DNA of 36,764 nucleotides from contig VMTD01000105.1 in the NCBI GenBank assembly GCA_013791785.1, positions 1 through 36,764 on the forward strand. Direction: 5' to 3'. The notes under the pieces are model-generated. The model saw only the letters and a list, made by a program, of their open reading frames with translations, had not been told where the DNA came from and ran no database searches. Positions 26,585 to 36,764 of this stretch are shown here, in pieces. How positions within the stretch are numbered: position 1 is the stretch's first letter; the number at the start of each line of letters is the position of its first letter. Origin of the DNA: Methanobacteriota archaeon (GTDB taxonomy: Archaea; Thermoplasmatota; Thermoplasmata; SG8-5). Made by a program: the position numbers and the translations under genes.

Positions 26585-27436
26585 TCAAATATTATCCAAG
26601 AATTCCCGAACCGCTGAATAGGCCGCTGCCTGTTCTCTTTTTCTTAACTCTGAATCGACAGATGTGAAAATTCCTACCCAGGAAGGGCCTTCTGCCCTTA
26701 TGTTTCTGAATTTTTTCTCAATTGAATCGATGCCTGCCCTCAACCCCTCATCCGCAAGGTGCGGTTTGACCTTTTTTGCAACTTCTATTGGATTTTTCAG
26801 GCAATATCCGATCACGGAATAAATGTCATAGGCGTCCTTCTCCTTGTAGCGCTCACCCAATGCAATCCCTTTCATACCCAGGCATCCCGGAATGTCCAGC
26901 ATAGATAGAAATTCTTCTGCTTCCCCATTTCCCGGAAGCATTCCAGTAATCTTTCTTGGGTAATTGAATCTGAAGGCCAGTTCACAACCGCCAGCGATTC
27001 TTGCCGGTAATCCTGCCTGAACCGTTCGATGACGGTGCTTGCCTGAGGTCGAAGTTGCATAAGTTAAAAAATCAACCGTAATCATGTGTTCTTTACCGTC
27101 AATATTTGATTGCACAGGTTTGGAAAAGCTGTATGCAATCGGGTTGCCGTCCCTACCCAATCGCGTTTTGTAGCCCCTGCCCTCAATCATCTCCACTATT
27201 GTGGCATACGCATCAGCATCTATTTGCTCCGGATTTACTGCGAGGTCGATATCAATGGAGCCAACATGCTTGAAGTCCTTTCTGCCGAACTCGTCAATGA
27301 GGAGATACGGAACCCAGCCACCGACAAGAACTATTGAATCCCCATATGATTTCAGAGTCAATGCCAGTTCCAAAAGTGCGGAAAAAGATGCCTCGGTTAA
27401 ACTCTCACCATAATCGTCTGAAAATCTTTGAACCAT
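26585..27436 (-). CDS. AbiEii/AbiGii-like nucleotidyltransferase toxin (type IV TA)
   Basis: IVLVGGWVPYLLIDEFG...GSIDIDLAV (GG...DxD NTase core); adjacent to an AbiEi-like gene. Confidence 0.75.
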   Translation of the reverse strand: MVQRFSDDYGESLTEASFSALLELALTLKSYGDSIVLVGGWVPYLLIDEFGRKDFKHVGSIDIDLAVNPEQIDADAYATIVEMIEGRGYKTRLGRDGNPIAYSFSKPVQSNIDGKEHMITVDFLTYATSTSGKHRHRTVQAGLPARIAGGCELAFRFNYPRKITGMLPGNGEAEEFLSMLDIPGCLGMKGIALGERYKEKDAYDIYSVIGYCLKNPIEVAKKVKPHLADEGLRAGIDSIEKKFRNIRAEGPSWVGIFTSVDSELRKREQAAAYSAVREFLDNI

Positions 27437-27438
27437 TT

Positions 27439-28497
27439 TCAGACCCCCAGTAATTGTTCTCTCAGGTGTTCGGCCTGTTCTCTGCCACGCATCGGGTAGT
27501 TATATAGGTCCAGGTATAATTGAATGTTGGAAACAATTAGTAACTCATTGATTTTTTGAATGTCGGAAAAAACAGCCTTATCCGTCGGTTTGACCAGATA
27601 GACGTTTCCGCCAAATTCCACGGGTTTTAAATTCAATGCATTTATCAATTTATCCATGTCCTTTTTTACATAGACGTAGACATCTGTTGAACGCACAAAC
27701 GGGGCCAACAATGATGCTGCCGCGCCAAGAGTCAGGGCGTAATCATCCATGGATTTCAGGCTTCCGAATATTTTATCCTGGTCCTTCAATGGGCAGTAAT
27801 AACCAGAAATATCTTGCCTGTCAAAACGATAAATTTCGGCCCAGGCATCGAGCAGTTCACCGGGTTTCAGTAATTTGATAGAGCCGCGCTCCTTTTCCAA
27901 ATACCCCTCCGAAACCAGTTTGTTGACCACCTTGTAGGCCTGCCCGATGCTCACCGCAGCTTCTGCGGACAATTCCTCAAATTTCCATGCCCTCTCCGGT
28001 TCTGAAAGAAGGCGCCTGATCACCCAAGTGGCTTTGGTGCTGAAAAGATGTTTCTGAATGCGTTTTTCCTTGGCTATGCTTTCCTTGCCCCACCTCTCTA
28101 TCAGAATTCCATTGAACCTCAGGAAGGCGTTTCCGGAAAGGTCCACAAATCCCAGGCCCATTTCCTTGCACAATCCCCTTCCCCGGGAGCTTATGAACGG
28201 CGCAACCAGGACAGGGTATCCGGGCAACCTGTTCCCCCACGCTTTCGCCTTGCCGGCGAATTCTGCGATTGCGCCCGGCGTTCCGGAGGATTTGACCAGC
28301 ACCAGCAATGTGTATTTTTTTCCAGCCTGTTTGACAGTCAAAACCAGATCAGGGTCCCAGCCTAAATTATTTGTGGATGGCGGCCCCCATCTGACTTCCA
28401 GCAGCTCTGCCAGAACCTCTTCCAGGGCGTTTTTTGCGTCTTGCACGGCGACAGTATTTTCACTATTTGCCACATTTTCACCAAATGATGAAAACAC
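27439..28497 (-). CDS. AbiEi-like antitoxin/regulator with N-terminal nuclease-fold-like region and wHTH
   Basis: DPDLVLTVKQAGKKYTLLVLVKSSG...FVDLSGNAFLRFNGI; wHTH AWKFEELSAEAAVSIGQAYKVVNKLVSEGYLEKERGSIKLL; 2-nt gap to the NTase gene. Confidence 0.72.
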   Translation of the reverse strand: MFSSFGENVANSENTVAVQDAKNALEEVLAELLEVRWGPPSTNNLGWDPDLVLTVKQAGKKYTLLVLVKSSGTPGAIAEFAGKAKAWGNRLPGYPVLVAPFISSRGRGLCKEMGLGFVDLSGNAFLRFNGILIERWGKESIAKEKRIQKHLFSTKATWVIRRLLSEPERAWKFEELSAEAAVSIGQAYKVVNKLVSEGYLEKERGSIKLLKPGELLDAWAEIYRFDRQDISGYYCPLKDQDKIFGSLKSMDDYALTLGAAASLLAPFVRSTDVYVYVKKDMDKLINALNLKPVEFGGNVYLVKPTDKAVFSDIQKINELLIVSNIQLYLDLYNYPMRGREQAEHLREQLLGV

Positions 28498-28853: not shown

Positions 28854-29408
28854 TTATGTGGAAGGTAGCGGAGCGCCTTCTCCATAAATCAATTCATGAG
28901 GTTTTGCTTTCTTCCGAATAACTTTCTCTTTTAAAGTATCAAAATCATCATTTTTCATTAAATAGATAGGTTCATCCAGATTAAATAATGGGGTAATCAA
29001 TTTAAAATGCTTATGGTCGCCGGTTACAACTTTCTTTTGCCCAAGGTCTTTTGCCATTTGGCAAACAACCAGGTCTGTGAATGAGGTATTGATTTCTTCG
29101 TGCTCAGAATACATTCTCAAACATGAATCTATATGTTCCTTTCTGATGACACTCATAATCCAATACTTATCATTCAATATCAATTTACCGACAGAACATG
29201 CCAGGTTAAAGGCCTTGGAAGTGTCTTTCTCTTTCTCGTTGATTCTCCTTCGAACTACGTTTATTGACTCATTCAATACGTAATCACAAGTGTATGGTTT
29301 TATTATTTGACCATTGAAAATTGCAGCAGCAATGTGCAGTGCATGTTTGTGGTATTGATCCCGTTGGTTTGTGTAGGCTACAAAAAAACCTGAATCAAGA
29401 AAAACCAT
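28854..29408 (-). CDS. PIN-domain toxin (VapC-like RNase)
   Basis: MVFLDSGFFVAYTNQRDQYH, NESINVV, TSFTDLVVCQMA, VVTGDHKHF: the expected acidic quartet. Confidence 0.85.
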   Translation of the reverse strand: MVFLDSGFFVAYTNQRDQYHKHALHIAAAIFNGQIIKPYTCDYVLNESINVVRRRINEKEKDTSKAFNLACSVGKLILNDKYWIMSVIRKEHIDSCLRMYSEHEEINTSFTDLVVCQMAKDLGQKKVVTGDHKHFKLITPLFNLDEPIYLMKNDDFDTLKEKVIRKKAKPHELIYGEGAPLPST

Positions 29409-30683: not shown

Positions 30684-30987
30684 ATGCTGGTGGAAAAATG
30701 CCCGATGATAAAATGCAGGAGGCCGGTCGCACCTACTCCCAGCCTTCAAGCGCCTTATGGTCCTTCCTGTTCTTCAGGTTCTGGGCCAGGTCTGCGAAGC
30801 GTTTGACGGAGAGGTCGAGGTATTTTGGCTCGGTATCAATGCCGATGAAACGCCTTCCATACATGCAGGCGGCCAGGCCTGTTGTGCTGGAGCCGGTGAA
30901 CGGGTCAAGAATTAAATCGCCCTCATTGGTGCTGGCTAGGACCACCCGCCGGAGCAAATCCAGGGACTTCTGGATCGGATGCTTTCC
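30676..30987 (-). repeat. 312-bp duplication of methyltransferase 3' end, copy 1
   Basis: Collinear and gap-free with 32307-32618; a small number of substitutions. Confidence 0.9.
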
Positions 30988-31005
30988 CGAAGGTCTTCTC
31001 AGCAA
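30733..31005 (-). pseudogene. Truncated DNA adenine methyltransferase (C-terminal fragment)
   Basis: KHPIQKSLDLLRRVVLASTNEGDLILDPFTGSSTTGLAACMYGRRFIGIDTEPKYLDLSVKRFADLAQNLKNRKDHKALEGWE matches the intact enzyme; N-terminus missing. Confidence 0.88.
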
Positions 31006-31070: not shown

Positions 31071-31106
31071 GTTCAAAATAGTGAACATATGTTCGATAAA
31101 ATGAAC
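31071..31106 (+). promoter_or_regulatory. Symmetric four-half-site operator at the MNT gene start
   Basis: GTTC-N8-GAAC-ATAT-GTTC-N8-GAAC; central GAACATATGTTC (31083-31094) is a perfect palindrome; TATA-like tatatact about 20 nt upstream. Confidence 0.65.
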
Positions 31107-31634
31107 ATTAAGCCCCTGGCAATAACAATTCTGGTCCATCTCTCGCGTTCCTCCGGCAAGGAATTCTACGTAAGGGAAGTAGCCAGAGAAACCGGCGCCA
31201 GCCTTGGAGGATGCCACAAAGCACTGAGGGAATTGCTGGTGCTTGGCCTGGTCAAGTCGAGGAAGAGCGGCCGCAACCTGTATTACACGGTCGATGCTGC
31301 GAACCCGGCAATCCCTCGCTTCAAGATATTTATCAACCTGGTCGAACTCAAGAAACTTGTGGATTGCCTTCGGCCTTCGGTGTTCAAAGCCGTTCTATTT
31401 GGCAGTTGCGCATCCGGGGCCGATACTCAAGATAGTGACATCGACATCTTCATTATAACCCCTGAACCGGGCCCGGTCAGGGAAATTCTGAAATCCATGA
31501 AATTGTCGAGAAAAATCCAGGCGGTGATATTCACGCCGGGACAATTGTTGGAGTCCAGAGAGAAGGATCCGGCATTTCATGGCGAGATTGATAAAGGGAT
31601 AGTGCTTTACAGGGCAGAAGATGAACGCTTTTGA
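31089..31634 (+). CDS. wHTH plus minimal nucleotidyltransferase (MNT) fusion, antitoxin-like
   Basis: N-terminal wHTH FYVREVARETGASLGGCHKALRELLVLGLV; NTase VLFGSCASGADTQDSDIDIFII (GS...DxD). Confidence 0.85.
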   Translation: MFDKMNIKPLAITILVHLSRSSGKEFYVREVARETGASLGGCHKALRELLVLGLVKSRKSGRNLYYTVDAANPAIPRFKIFINLVELKKLVDCLRPSVFKAVLFGSCASGADTQDSDIDIFIITPEPGPVREILKSMKLSRKIQAVIFTPGQLLESREKDPAFHGEIDKGIVLYRAEDERF

Positions 31635-32034
31635 GAGATGTATTGCGGAGAAGAGATTGGTGAAGGTCGAGATTTCCCCCGAGATGATAAAGAAGGAACT
31701 GGAGAGCGCCGATTATGATTATGGGCGGGCCATGGGCAGCCTTAAAGAAAAGGATGCAAAATGGGCTTCGATTCAGGCATATTATTCCATTTTTCATGCG
31801 GCCAAGGCGCTTGTTCTTTCCAAAGGATACAGGGAGAAGGGGCATGCCTGCCTTCAGATAGCCCTGAAGGAGCTTTTTCCGGAGGAGAAAGACCTGGCTA
31901 ACGACCTGGAAATGTGCATGGACCTCCGTCATGGCGCGGATTACGCATCAACATACGATGCAGAGAGTGCCAAGATTGCGGTGAGGAAAGCCGGAACTTC
32001 CTTGGAAAGGGTCGGGGAACTGCTCGGCCAATGA
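31621..32034 (+). CDS. HEPN-domain protein, toxin-like partner
   Basis: AKWASIQAYYSIFHAAKALVLSKGY...DLRHGADYAS; overlaps the MNT stop by 14 nt. Confidence 0.85.
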   Translation: MNAFERCIAEKRLVKVEISPEMIKKELESADYDYGRAMGSLKEKDAKWASIQAYYSIFHAAKALVLSKGYREKGHACLQIALKELFPEEKDLANDLEMCMDLRHGADYASTYDAESAKIAVRKAGTSLERVGELLGQ

Positions 32035-32313: not shown

Positions 32314-32618
32314 CATGCTGGTGGAAAAATGCCCGATGATAAAATGCAGGAGGCCGGTCGCACCTACTCCCAGCCTTCAAGCACCTTATGGTCCTTCCTG
32401 TTCTTCAGGTTCTGGGCCAGGTCTGCGAAGCGCTTGACGGAGAGGTCCAGGTATTTCGGTTCCGTATCAATGCCGATGAAACGCCTTCCATACATGCAGG
32501 CGGCCAGGCCTGTTGTGCTGGAGCCGGTGAACGGGTCAAGAATTAAATCGCCCTCGTTGGTGCTGGCCAGGACCACCCGCCGTAGCAAATCCAGAGATTT
32601 CTGGGTCGGATGTTTTCC
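32307..32618 (-). repeat. 312-bp duplication of methyltransferase 3' end, copy 2 (parent)
   Basis: See 30676-30987. Confidence 0.9.
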
Positions 32619-33248
32619 ATGCGTTTTTTCCGAGGGCTTGGGTGTGGTTATCGCCCAAACCGAGCGCATCTGCTTGTTGGATTTCTTGATAAAATCACCG
32701 GGCCAGCGCCCGTTCTTCATGGCATCATAGTTGAAAGTGTGTTTACCGGCTTTTGATTTCCGCGCCCAGAGAAGCGTTTCATGGCTGGCAGTGAAAAATC
32801 GTGTGCTCAGGTTCGGTGCTGCATTGGGCTTGTACCAGGCAATGTCGTTCAGCATGTGGAAGCCCTGCAATTGAAGCGCGTAGCCGCAAGCGTATATCGA
32901 GTGATAAGTACCGGAAATCCAGATTGTGCCGTTCTTCTTCAGAATTCGTTTGCACGCGGCAATCCAGGCCATGTGAAACTCGAAATCCAGTTCCGGACCC
33001 TGGCTCTTGTCCCAGTCCCCCTTGTTGACAGGGACGCGCTTTCCTGCATGACACGTGAAGCCGCCATTGGAGAGATTGTATGGGGGGTCGGCGAAGACCA
33101 TGTCGACGGATTCCTCCGGCATCGATTCGAGGAGGGCGAGGCAGTCGGAGTGGTAGAGGGTGAATCCGGACGGGAATAATATGGCTGTGCCGATGGAGGG
33201 GAGGAAAGGATAATAATGATAGTTCAACATACAGGAGGGAGGAGTCAA
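32364..33248 (-). CDS. Beta-class DNA adenine methyltransferase (DpnA/DpnIIB-like)
   Basis: MVFADPPYNLSNGGFTCHAGKRVPVNKGDWDKS (DPPY), DPFTGSSTTGLAA (SAM motif). Start may be MLNYHYY at 33230. Confidence 0.92.
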   Translation of the reverse strand: MTPPSCMLNYHYYPFLPSIGTAILFPSGFTLYHSDCLALLESMPEESVDMVFADPPYNLSNGGFTCHAGKRVPVNKGDWDKSQGPELDFEFHMAWIAACKRILKKNGTIWISGTYHSIYACGYALQLQGFHMLNDIAWYKPNAAPNLSTRFFTASHETLLWARKSKAGKHTFNYDAMKNGRWPGDFIKKSNKQMRSVWAITTPKPSEKTHGKHPTQKSLDLLRRVVLASTNEGDLILDPFTGSSTTGLAACMYGRRFIGIDTEPKYLDLSVKRFADLAQNLKNRKDHKVLEGWE

Positions 33249-33251
33249 TAG

Positions 33252-34601
33252 ATGGCTGATGATATGGATTTGCTACTGCAGGAAGGCGAGGGCTACAAAG
33301 TAGAATTCAAAGAGGCAGTTTCAAGATTGGATAAGGAGATGTGTGCCTTTGCCAATTCCTCCGGCGGAGCCATATACATAGGCATCGCAGACAACAACGA
33401 GATCAAATCATATAAACTTACCAACAAGCTGAAATCAGAAATTATCGACATTGCAAGGAACTGCGACCCTCCAATCACGATATCTGTGCAGCAAACAGGA
33501 GACATAATAAAGATAGATATTCCAGAGGGCGATAACAAACCGTATGGATGTGCCAATGGTTTTTACTTGAGAATCGGGCCTAATTCACAGAAGATGACAA
33601 GGGACGAGATAATAGTTCTCATAAAGTCAGAAGGCAAGATAAGGTTTGACGAGCTATTAGAGACAAAGTTCGGCTATCCCACAGATTTTGATAAAAATAA
33701 ATTATCGAGATTTTTAGAACTTGCAAGACTTTCAAAAACAATAAAAGTGGATAAGGTCTTGCTCAACCTGGGCGTCGCAGAGAAAGAAGAGGGAGAACTC
33801 TATATCAATAACTCGGGCGTATTATTTTTCGCCAAAGAACCTCAGAAATTCATTCCGTGGTCTGTTTTTACAGTCGTTCTCTTCAAGGACAAAGATGGTG
33901 CTGATGTAATTGATAGAAAAGAAATAACAGGGAGTCTGTTTGAGATTGTTGAACAGGTAATGGATTTCGTCAGACTATATGCAAAAGTGGCGTACAGGTT
34001 TACCGGCAAACCACAGAGGGAAAATATCTATGAATATCCATTTGATGCGATAAGAGAGGCTGTTATCAATTCTGTGATGCACAAGGATTATTTTGAACAT
34101 GGTCACAACAACATCCTGAAATTCTTCCCAGATAATATCCGGATAGAAAATATCTGGGTCAGGCCCAGGCATTTTGTCCTTGGAAAGACTGTTTTCAGAA
34201 GAAATCATCTGATTGCTGACCTGTTCTCAAAGATAGATTTCGGCGAAAAGCTTGGCTCAGGAATGCAGAGAATGAAAGATATCTGCAAGGCCGAGAATAC
34301 TCCACATCCAAAAATAGAATTTACCGACACACATTTTTACGTAGTGTTCAAACAGAACAGGGAATACCTAAAGATGATTGAAAAAGAGGACGATAGGGAT
34401 ATATGGCATATTTTGAATGGAAGACAAAGAAAAGCGGTTGAATATATTAAAACACAGGAATCTATCTCCATCTTAGAGTATATATCCTTGAATAAAGTGA
34501 GTGATAAAACTGCTAGACGGGATTTGAATGATTTGGTTGAAAAGGGAATACTCAAAAAGGAAGGCGTTACCACTGGCCTCAAATATAAATTATTGCCGTA
34601 G
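33252..34601 (+). CDS. AlbA_2/Schlafen-type ATP-binding protein with C-terminal wHTH (COG2865-like)
   Basis: EGEGYKVEFKEAVSRLDKEMCAFANSSGGAIYIGIADNNEI; DAIREAVINSVMHKDYFEHGHNNILKFFPDNIRIEN; GEKLGSGMQRMKDIC; RBS-like aggaggg. Confidence 0.9.
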   Translation: MADDMDLLLQEGEGYKVEFKEAVSRLDKEMCAFANSSGGAIYIGIADNNEIKSYKLTNKLKSEIIDIARNCDPPITISVQQTGDIIKIDIPEGDNKPYGCANGFYLRIGPNSQKMTRDEIIVLIKSEGKIRFDELLETKFGYPTDFDKNKLSRFLELARLSKTIKVDKVLLNLGVAEKEEGELYINNSGVLFFAKEPQKFIPWSVFTVVLFKDKDGADVIDRKEITGSLFEIVEQVMDFVRLYAKVAYRFTGKPQRENIYEYPFDAIREAVINSVMHKDYFEHGHNNILKFFPDNIRIENIWVRPRHFVLGKTVFRRNHLIADLFSKIDFGEKLGSGMQRMKDICKAENTPHPKIEFTDTHFYVVFKQNREYLKMIEKEDDRDIWHILNGRQRKAVEYIKTQESISILEYISLNKVSDKTARRDLNDLVEKGILKKEGVTTGLKYKLLP

Positions 34602-34636
34602 ACATATACATCACTAAACATGTCCGAGCCCACCAG

Positions 34637-34666
34637 AACTTCGGTCAACTTCGGTCAACTTCGGTC
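34637..34666 (+). repeat. Tandem 10-bp repeat, 3 copies of AACTTCGGTC
   Basis: aacttcggtcaacttcggtcaacttcggtc. Confidence 0.85.
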
Positions 34667-34959
34667 AGAAGATGAGGAGGGAGCAGCCGAAGAAACTGCT
34701 TGAAACCCGAAAGTGCCTGGCAGGTTGGCGGGGGAAAATAGTTAAGATTATGATTGAACATGTCCTCGCCCACATACCGCAATCTTTAGATTTGCGGATA
34801 CGGGCGCTTTCTATGCAATTATTATTGCGAGAAATTGTTTAATAAAGGTGCTCCCCACAATATTCCATGCTTCAAGCATTTTCGAATCACCCTGGATGAC
34901 CCTTTCACCCATTTGATTTCATGTCATTCAGGATGAAAGCAGTTAGGATTCAGCAGCAC

Positions 34960-35085
34960 TCATTTTCCATTCTTTTCCCAGGATTTAAGCGACTTCTGCT
35001 TACCTTTCTTTTCAATATCATTCTTCAAATCCTCAAACCTCTTGATGGACAAGTCCAGGAGTATTTTTCTTTTGACCTCGCTGCG
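34960..35085 (-). pseudogene. Remnant of another methyltransferase C-terminal tail
   Basis: Minus frame ...EVKRKILLDLSIKRFEDLKNDIEKKGKQKSLKSWEKNGK*, compared with PKYLDLSVKRFADLAQNLKNRKDHKVLEGWE in the intact gene. Confidence 0.6.
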
Positions 35086-35158
35086 CTGGCTCACCCTCCA
35101 AAAGAAAAATATTCAGCAAACAAGAAAAATCGGGTTCGCCTGCTCGCTCGGTACATTG

Positions 35159-35178
35159 CTGGCGCGTGGGCGCGCCAG
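35159..35178 (+). repeat. Perfect 8-bp stem hairpin CTGGCGCG-TGGG-CGCGCCAG
   Basis: Direct inspection. Confidence 0.75.
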
Positions 35179-35240
35179 ACACAACCAAGTCATAACCAAC
35201 CTATAACCATCATTTTACCCTCGCCCAGCCATTCACCATC

Positions 35241-35462
35241 ATGTCTGAAATCCCCACTCCGGAGCAAGTCCTGGCGGGCGACCCGTTCTTCCACGACGCA
35301 GAAGGCAATGCTCGTGCGGTATGCGTGGGGTGCGGGTGCGCGATCGACCCGGAGTTCGGGGATTATGTGGAACTGGCCATTACGAGGAAGCGGGGGCTGG
35401 GGATGGAGCGACCCGGACGGAGGTGGGTGTGGTGTGGGGGGTGTTGGATTGGCTATGAATAG
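35241..35462 (+). CDS. Small Zn-ribbon-like protein
   Basis: MSEIPTPEQVLAGDPFFHDAEGNARAVCVGCGCAIDPEFGDYVELAITRKRGLGMERPGRRWVWCGGCWIGYE; CxxC...CxxC. Confidence 0.6.
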   Translation: MSEIPTPEQVLAGDPFFHDAEGNARAVCVGCGCAIDPEFGDYVELAITRKRGLGMERPGRRWVWCGGCWIGYE

Positions 35463-35523
35463 TTTCGCCACCCCCTCCCTATTCTTTATATAATATCTAT
35501 ATCCATATGGCCCGAGTGGTAAT

Positions 35524-36636
35524 ATGTCTAGAGAGAAATCTTCGAAAACCAAGGAACAATTAGGAATCCTTGACAAATTATATCAATATTTTAAAGCTGG
35601 GTTATGGAGACAAACACGCCAACTATTCGACAAGTATGATGATAGTGAAGATGCAATAACCGGTGTGGACATTACAAATTACCTCGCGCCCAGTGCTCTA
35701 AAATTAAGATCAATGCATTCGATTGTCCAATTAATGTCTAAAGTGCGCCAAGATGTTGGAAAAAATGCAATATTCATTGGTGTGGAGAGGAAAGGATATG
35801 TTTTCGCGGGCGCTTTGCTTGATGAGTTCGAGGAAACAGACATCATTTTAAAAGGAAGCCGCCATGTAAATGAAAAAGACGTAAAAGGCAAAACAGTTGT
35901 GTTGATAGATGATGCGTCCAAAACTGGAAAAACGATAATAGATAAAACGAAAGAATATCAGAAACTTGGGGCCGATGTCGTAATTGCAATTGTTGCGTTA
36001 GCCACGAAAGCCGCTGTGGATAACATCAACATTCAATTTAAATCCAAGAATGTAGCATTATTTTCACATACCGTATGCGAAAATGAAGATGAATACGCGG
36101 AATTGTATCCGCTGTTTTACCATATCGTCAGCAGCAGTAGCATTCCCATTGCTGGCGAACCGAAAGCGGAAATACATTTTGCTACGAATAGTTTAGATCT
36201 TGTTGTGAAAACACTTTGCAATTTGGACAGGGGAAAGTACGTCAATATCGATTCAATCGAAAACTCTTATCCTGTAAGGGGAACCATCGACTACTACGAA
36301 TACACTCTCGCGAATGGTGCGGAGGAATTCAAGGAGATAGGAGACAAAACTGGTTTCTTCATTACTTTGGAGCAGTCAAAAATCCGACTCTATTTCGATT
36401 TCGATGGGACCGTGATTGTAAAACTATGCCCCATAGTCTATCTAGAGATTCCTGAGAAAGTCAATTGTCGGGAATATGAAAAATGCAAAAAATCAATGGA
36501 TCTGGTAGGGCAACCATTACTATGCGTCAAGTGCATTGAAGAGATGATCGGGGACATATTGCTCGGCATAATGAAAGAGGATCTTGACAGAAAAGCCAGT
36601 GCTCTGCACTTGAAATACAGATTTAAAAAATTATAG
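35524..36636 (+). CDS. Phosphoribosyltransferase-fold protein with unknown C-terminal extension and Cys cluster
   Basis: PRPP-loop-like KTVVLIDDASKTGKTIID; NAIFIGVERKGYVFAGALL; C-terminal C-x5-C-x12-C-x2-C; strong TATA-like ctttatataatat upstream. Confidence 0.75.
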   Translation: MSREKSSKTKEQLGILDKLYQYFKAGLWRQTRQLFDKYDDSEDAITGVDITNYLAPSALKLRSMHSIVQLMSKVRQDVGKNAIFIGVERKGYVFAGALLDEFEETDIILKGSRHVNEKDVKGKTVVLIDDASKTGKTIIDKTKEYQKLGADVVIAIVALATKAAVDNINIQFKSKNVALFSHTVCENEDEYAELYPLFYHIVSSSSIPIAGEPKAEIHFATNSLDLVVKTLCNLDRGKYVNIDSIENSYPVRGTIDYYEYTLANGAEEFKEIGDKTGFFITLEQSKIRLYFDFDGTVIVKLCPIVYLEIPEKVNCREYEKCKKSMDLVGQPLLCVKCIEEMIGDILLGIMKEDLDRKASALHLKYRFKKL

Positions 36637-36646
36637 GGGAAAGGGA

Positions 36647-36764
36647 CTAAATCAAGCCCCTTTCATTCAGGTCGGCGATCATCTTGTCGACCATCGGTTT
36701 TGCCTCGTTCGCTATGGAAATCTTCTTCCTCCATTTGCCACTCTCTAGCACCCAATCGGAGTCA
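36647..36764 (-). CDS. C-terminus of a CDS entering from the right edge
   Basis: Minus frame DSDWVLESGKWRKKISIANEAKPMVDKMIADLNERGLI*. Confidence 0.6.
   Translation of the reverse strand, partial: DSDWVLESGKWRKKISIANEAKPMVDKMIADLNERGLI

Follow-up and report, generated by a model that had tools for sequence, protein, structure and literature searches.

Does the phosphoribosyltransferase (PRTase)-fold protein encoded at the end of an archaeal contig serve nucleotide salvage, or does it belong to a conflict system? The window analysed here, that is, the whole stretch of 36,764 nucleotides, is contig C92 of genome G000, a Thermoplasmatota archaeon, and its last complete gene before the contig end at 36764 is a plus-strand open reading frame of 370 codons plus a stop codon. 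A sequence-only reading had described the product as a PRPP loop followed by an unrecognised C-terminal stretch with four cysteines, and had proposed a nucleotide-modifying effector of a conflict system rather than a salvage enzyme. The gene and its immediate surroundings show the following features.

35485..35493, plus strand: TATA-like box of archaeal type, TTTATATAA, roughly 30 bp ahead of the start codon, putative function
35524..36636, plus strand: PRTase-fold protein, 370 aa (open reading frame; Pribosyltran, 3.8e-11; alignment with eight near full-length members, itself included)
35779..35796, plus strand: PPi-loop motif GVERKG, residues 86-91, with R89-K90-G91 invariant in 8/8 aligned members
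35896..35934, plus strand: intact PRPP loop VVLIDDASKTGKT, residues 125-137, with D129 invariant in the aligned members
36064..36633, plus strand: family-specific C-terminal domain, approximately residues 181-370, with K286-x-R288 and P303 invariant, and with a fold model
36466..36534, plus strand: four-Cys cluster C315-x5-C321-x12-C334-x2-C337, a probable Zn site (predicted metal binding)
36647..36764, minus strand: 3′ end of a winged-helix (wHTH) partner gene (DSDWVLESGKWRKKISIANEAKPMVDKMIADLNERGLI*), truncated by the contig end (partner-family HMM, E 4.1e-8)

Pfam assigned Pribosyltran to residues 67-167 (3.8e-11; 43 bits, with a cut-off of 26.3), and the loop VVLIDDASKTGKT shows the four hydrophobic residues, two acidic residues and T/S-G-x-T of type I PRTases. 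Past approximately residue 190, no model in Pfam, NCBIfam or PADLOC covered the protein. The best PADLOC match was PRTase_III-A, the PRTase of type III-A retrons (1.6e-8, residues 70-181 only), and NCBIfam PRK02277 matched weakly (5.8e-4). All curated NCBIfam cut-offs for salvage and biosynthetic PRTases were missed by far, with 27.4 bits against a cut-off of 113 in the best case. A full-length AlphaFold model built with six sequences gave a reasonable PRTase core and was only moderate as a whole (pLDDT 62, pTM 0.49); in Foldseek it retrieved PRTase cores only, from HGPRT and OPRT structures (HGPRT, 1.4e-4). Residues 183-370 folded alone reached a mean pLDDT of 72.6 and a pTM of 0.69, and a comparison of this model with PDB folds, of the kind that the sequence-only reading had suggested, returned zero matches at E <= 0.001 (best E 0.05). 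The C-terminal region matched no salvage enzyme. Matches of this domain to KA1-like and helix-grip folds were weak and were discarded. The initial description of the protein held, with approximately 190 C-terminal residues unmatched in model libraries and PDB folds. The strong promoter of its own that had been claimed is plausible, as the putative TATA-like box TTTATATAA is present approximately 30 bp before the ATG. An Rfam search over 33000-36764, around the PRTase gene, found no match. The string TTTATATA occurs once on the plus strand of the window and not at all on its minus strand.

The toxin-antitoxin, methyltransferase and Schlafen-type neighbours named by the sequence-only reading were recovered by Pfam, and the genes upstream of the PRTase gene include the following.

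27439-28497: AbiEi-like protein
28854-29408: PIN-like protein
31089..32034, plus strand: MNT nucleotidyltransferase/HEPN pair, toxin-antitoxin-like (Polbeta, 7.9e-11; HEPN, 1.4e-11)
32364..33248, minus strand: N6/N4 DNA methyltransferase (1e-57)
33252..34601, plus strand: SLFN/AlbA_2 protein with RecG-like HATPase_c_4 and HTH

Within this region, 26585-28497 contains the AbiEi-like regulator (AbiEi_2, 3.5e-9) and, after it, a 283-aa protein that had no Pfam match, an arrangement like that of type IV toxin-antitoxin pairs. Near-identical copies of the C-terminal portion of the N6/N4 methyltransferase lie to both sides of the MNT/HEPN genes (30733-31005; 32364-33248), possibly as a duplication or an insertion scar. 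Past the SLFN/AlbA_2 gene, a short intergenic tandem repeat, acttcggtca, is present in approximately three copies (34638-34667).

Genome searches placed the closest relative, a near full-length protein with 40% identity, in genome G410, and further members in G625, G192, G424, G318, G565, G204, G278, G580 and G261; the member in G202 was found via its partner gene. The family set comprises about ten loci, mostly from MAGs, and its alignment A4 covers both halves of eight near full-length members including the window protein. Residues R89-K90-G91, D129, K286, R288 and P303 were invariant in this alignment. Because invariant positions also lie in the C-terminal region, it constitutes a conserved domain rather than junk. 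The latter part of the PRPP loop (T-G-x-T) was altered in several members (TADT, TGNK, TGNG, SGQS and TGQH) and retained as TGKT in the window and G410 proteins. Because this motif has changed in several members, not every member need be an enzyme. Equivalents of the four-Cys cluster were found in L030, L023, L043, L044, L052 and L049 (genomes G410, G261, G625, G192, G202 and G580), and the cluster was absent from the three cyclase-linked members L046-L048. The PRTase gene of G580 (L049, 6187-7272) is split by an in-frame stop codon, as a pseudogene or through an assembly error, and its HD-CE and wHTH neighbours are open.

The occurrence within the class was patchy: 10 of 399 genomes matched at E <= 1e-8, some of them with generic PRTases. 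Most single-protein matches of a scan of the phylum covered the core only, came from generic PRTases and were left out of the family. No relatives were found in plasmid and phage records by tblastn with the window protein, or in viral contigs searched with PRTase protein and wHTH queries.

The sequence-only reading had treated the PRTase as a single protein, and this was incomplete, as a conserved wHTH partner at the window end had been overlooked. The stop codon of this gene lies at 36649-36647 on the minus strand, convergent to the PRTase gene, and the encoded fragment DSDWVLESGKWRKKISIANEAKPMVDKMIADLNERGLI is 58% identical to the wHTH of G410 across that stretch. An adjacent wHTH of approximately 95-120 aa, always of this one family, was found in L030, L023, L043, L044, L046, L047, L048, L049, L050 and L052 in addition to the window end. 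It adjoins the PRTase in all homologous loci with a readable flank on that side, and the PRTase-wHTH pair was found in approximately ten Thermoplasmatota genomes. The two genes are convergent in seven loci (L030, L023, L043, L044, L049, L052 and the window), where their 3′ ends overlap by 11-17 bp or are separated by 10-35 bp; the wHTH gene is convergent to the PRTase-cyclase genes in L048 and divergent in L046, L047 and L050.

The pairwise divergences of PRTase and wHTH were strongly correlated in a Mantel test that includes some pairs from related genomes (r 0.88, p 1e-4). The modules do not track genus boundaries: G278 and G565, from different genera, have modules that resemble each other more closely than do those of G565 and G318, which share a genus, and G580 of that same genus has an HD-CE type module. 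In the phylum sample, seven of the nine genomes with the wHTH carried a PRTase beside it, the window being counted through a contig overlap; G308 and G383, also with the wHTH, had no PRTase beside it. Bacterial relatives of the wHTH (in 7 of 188 genomes around a Clostridia match) had no PRTase nearby. Because they occur apart from a PRTase, the wHTH family is broader than the module, and the pairing is not a generic effect of this wHTH. Reduced genomes (~1 Mb) related to the Clostridia match carry extended or tandem wHTHs of the same family, with no PRTase (L109-L115).

The genes beyond this pair were exchangeable. An HD-CE gene lies directly beside the PRTase in L043 (5e-20) and L049 (1e-12), and a class III nucleotide-cyclase-like gene follows it in L046, L047 and L048. 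The cyclase-like protein of L048 matched Guanylate_cyc (2.9e-5; 24.2 bits against a cut-off of 21.9), and those of L046 and L047 share its D-x-V-x-F and G-D motifs as read from the sequences. L023 and L052 encode a protein of 196-213 aa with HISCHG and LSACE motifs and only weak Pfam matches, which by its motifs may be a CHAT/caspase-like protease, and L044 encodes a protein with an RNCLVH motif and no Pfam match that could be HEPN-like. L052 additionally contains genes for a C5-methyltransferase, Vsr and a PD-(D/E)XK protein, and L045 contains a DpnI remnant. A third gene was not visible in the window or at the locus of the closest relative, G410, and the latter had no clear defence neighbours.

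One homologue lies among histidine biosynthesis genes: in L047, hisA and hisB flank the PRTase cassette. The L080 locus, from a sister genome within this genus, lacks the cassette and has hisB and hisA ~170 bp apart, and in L076 and L081 hisA is followed by the start of an unrelated ATPase gene. Accordingly, the L047 cassette represents an insertion into a variable site, and its location was rejected as support for a biosynthetic role. In this Methanoplasma-like genus, the spot holds the PRTase cassette in one genome, the ATPase in two and nothing in another, and it may be an insertion hotspot.

The complete wHTH gene of the source genome (96 aa) is located on another contig, C139, at 103-393. 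Over exactly 119 bp, the end of the window is identical to G000:C139:276-394; this overlap lies inside the wHTH gene, and the two contigs part immediately after the wHTH stop codon, which resembles a branch in an assembly graph with k=119. On C139, the place of the PRTase is taken by a gene with an RNase III domain (440-907; Pfam, 1e-16), which is convergent to the wHTH gene. Further genes on this contig encode a PDC-M57B homologue, a DpdC-like protein, an HNH nuclease and DrmC, DrmB and DrmA of DISARM (DrmA, 2.8e-99); a nuclease of the DpnI type is encoded upstream of the wHTH gene. These data are most simply read as one identical wHTH segment in two settings next to a defence island, with a single wHTH gene that, within one genome, seems to face the PRTase in one setting and the RNase III domain gene in the other; a mixture of strains in the MAG could also produce this picture, and we infer the link between the PRTase-wHTH pair and the drmABC contig from the assembly overlap. 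C139 (L068, 1-19623) has 141 identical bases at both ends. Because of these identical ends, it is circular or has a copy of the wHTH start on both flanks, and this defence island may be a circular element.

Taken together, the window PRTase is one half of a mobile, probably defensive PRTase-wHTH module whose mechanism we can only infer. The conflict-type context proposed earlier was borne out, as the homologues lie in unrelated places, several of them beside methyltransferase, Vsr, DpnI, HD-CE or caspase-like genes. With a confidence that falls a little short of even, we regard the PRTase as part of a small archaeal conflict module that is exchanged horizontally and comprises the wHTH and often an exchangeable third gene. 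This reading is supported by the constancy of the pair, the parallel divergence of its two proteins, the swapping of third partners, the defence genes adjoining several loci and the retained PRPP loop, whereas the usual convergent layout differs from the operons of most toxin-antitoxin pairs, the DISARM link was drawn through an assembly overlap and the G410 locus is free of clear defence neighbours. Within such a module, control of the PRTase by the wHTH is the best supported arrangement. If the pair works like the PRTase/WH effectors of type III-A retrons, the wHTH would keep the PRTase silent as a repressor or binding partner. Upon attack, the PRTase would use PRPP to drain or modify the nucleotide pool, resulting in a stop of growth, and the C-terminal Zn-type domain might select the substrate or the partner.

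The sequences are compatible with two roles of the PRTase, of which we favour a PRPP-consuming effector over a sensor of PRPP or nucleotides by which the wHTH and the third gene would be gated. The nucleotide-modifying effector role suggested by the sequence-only reading was not supported in the way that its conflict context was, as the activity is a predicted one and several members have a degenerate PRPP loop. Because of this degeneration, a ligand-sensing role is nearly as likely as an effector role. The corresponding alternative, to which we give a clearly lower but still appreciable probability, holds that the PRTase senses PRPP or nucleotides and controls the wHTH as a split regulator of the PurR or GfcR type, with the third gene as effector or signal maker. 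PRTase-wHTH fusions such as B. subtilis PurR are established regulators, and our module shares with regulators of this type the joint presence of a PRTase domain and a winged helix. The retention of D129 and R89-K90-G91 while T-G-x-T decays in several members, the constancy of PRTase and wHTH while the enzymatic third gene changes, and the weak PRK02277 match are consistent with a sensor. Unlike these regulators, the module consists of separate, mostly convergent genes, no fusion having been seen, and it has an extra C-terminal Cys domain and no biosynthetic neighbourhood. The fully intact loop of the window protein and the lack of a visible third gene in the window and in G410 also argue against a sensor, as does the use of PRTase/WH as effector genes by type III-A retrons (PMC12548924).

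Two further readings are improbable, and to the same degree. In the first, the pair would be a toxin-antitoxin or addiction module that stabilises mobile DNA, with the PRTase as toxin, the wHTH as antitoxin and no antiviral role. Two small, paired and mobile genes close to other toxin-antitoxin genes (MNT/HEPN and AbiEi-like), together with a wHTH that is apparently duplicated or on a circular contig, would fit such a module, but a convergent layout and enzymatic third genes are atypical of it. In the second, which we likewise consider doubtful, the genes would form an undescribed nucleotide-signalling immune module of archaea, in which the PRTase produces or detects a signal derived from PRPP under the gating control of the wHTH, and the third gene serves signal turnover or killing.

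A type III-A retron consists of a reverse transcriptase (RT), an ncRNA and the effector genes PRTase and WH, as in Retron-Bpu1 and Retron-Ppe1 (PMC12548924). It is very unlikely that the window contains such a retron or a remnant of one, with its RT and ncRNA missing or missed. The two systems resemble each other as two-protein units of a PRTase and a winged helix, PRTase_III-A was the best defence model for the core, and two III-A models each matched four of eight family members. However, this likeness is limited to the PRTase core: the C-terminal domain is unrelated at the sensitivity used, and the wHTH partner matched none of the retron WH models. The module also differs from III-A retrons in being archaeal and usually convergent and in its varying third gene, and Rfam gave no match near the gene. 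No RT was seen in the homologous loci read or in the window, whose contig ends 128 bp past the PRTase gene. Because an RT was not found, we do not file the module as a retron.

Beside type III-A retrons, the conflict proteins PRTase-CE (PF24390) and HD-CE (PF24391) are the nearest known kinds. HD-CE genes adjoin two family members, and PRTase-CE weakly matched residues 82-189 of the window protein with 21 bits, under the gathering cut-off of 27 bits; the G410 relative was just above it (27.1 bits). The neighbour of a bacterial protein that is a clear PRTase-CE member (L096) is an ATPase-like protein and not a wHTH. This protein was rejected as a relative, since it aligned with the family profile on 44 core columns only, with a probability of 1%. 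A literature search on PRTase-CE found no paper.

The salvage reading, in which the protein would be a PRTase of usual nucleotide salvage or biosynthesis that carries an additional domain, is already largely refuted and scarcely probable: although the core fold and PRPP loop are those of type I salvage PRTases (HGPRT, OPRT and APRT), with Foldseek matches to HGPRT and OPRT, and one homologue lies among his genes, the protein stays below every curated cut-off, has ~190 unmatched C-terminal residues and is patchily distributed, its his-linked copy is an insertion, and the neighbourhoods differ between homologous loci, with no metabolic context in common and no conserved purine or pyrimidine operon.

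To our knowledge, PRTase defence effectors are known mainly from retrons and from sequence predictions, and we found no description of the role of PRPP in them; a 2026 survey of archaeal immunity mentions neither PRTases nor retrons in its main text. An archaeal PRTase-wHTH pair that operates without an RT would separate the question of the effector from the retron machinery, in a small system of two genes, and the exchangeable third genes are candidates for signal or killer functions.
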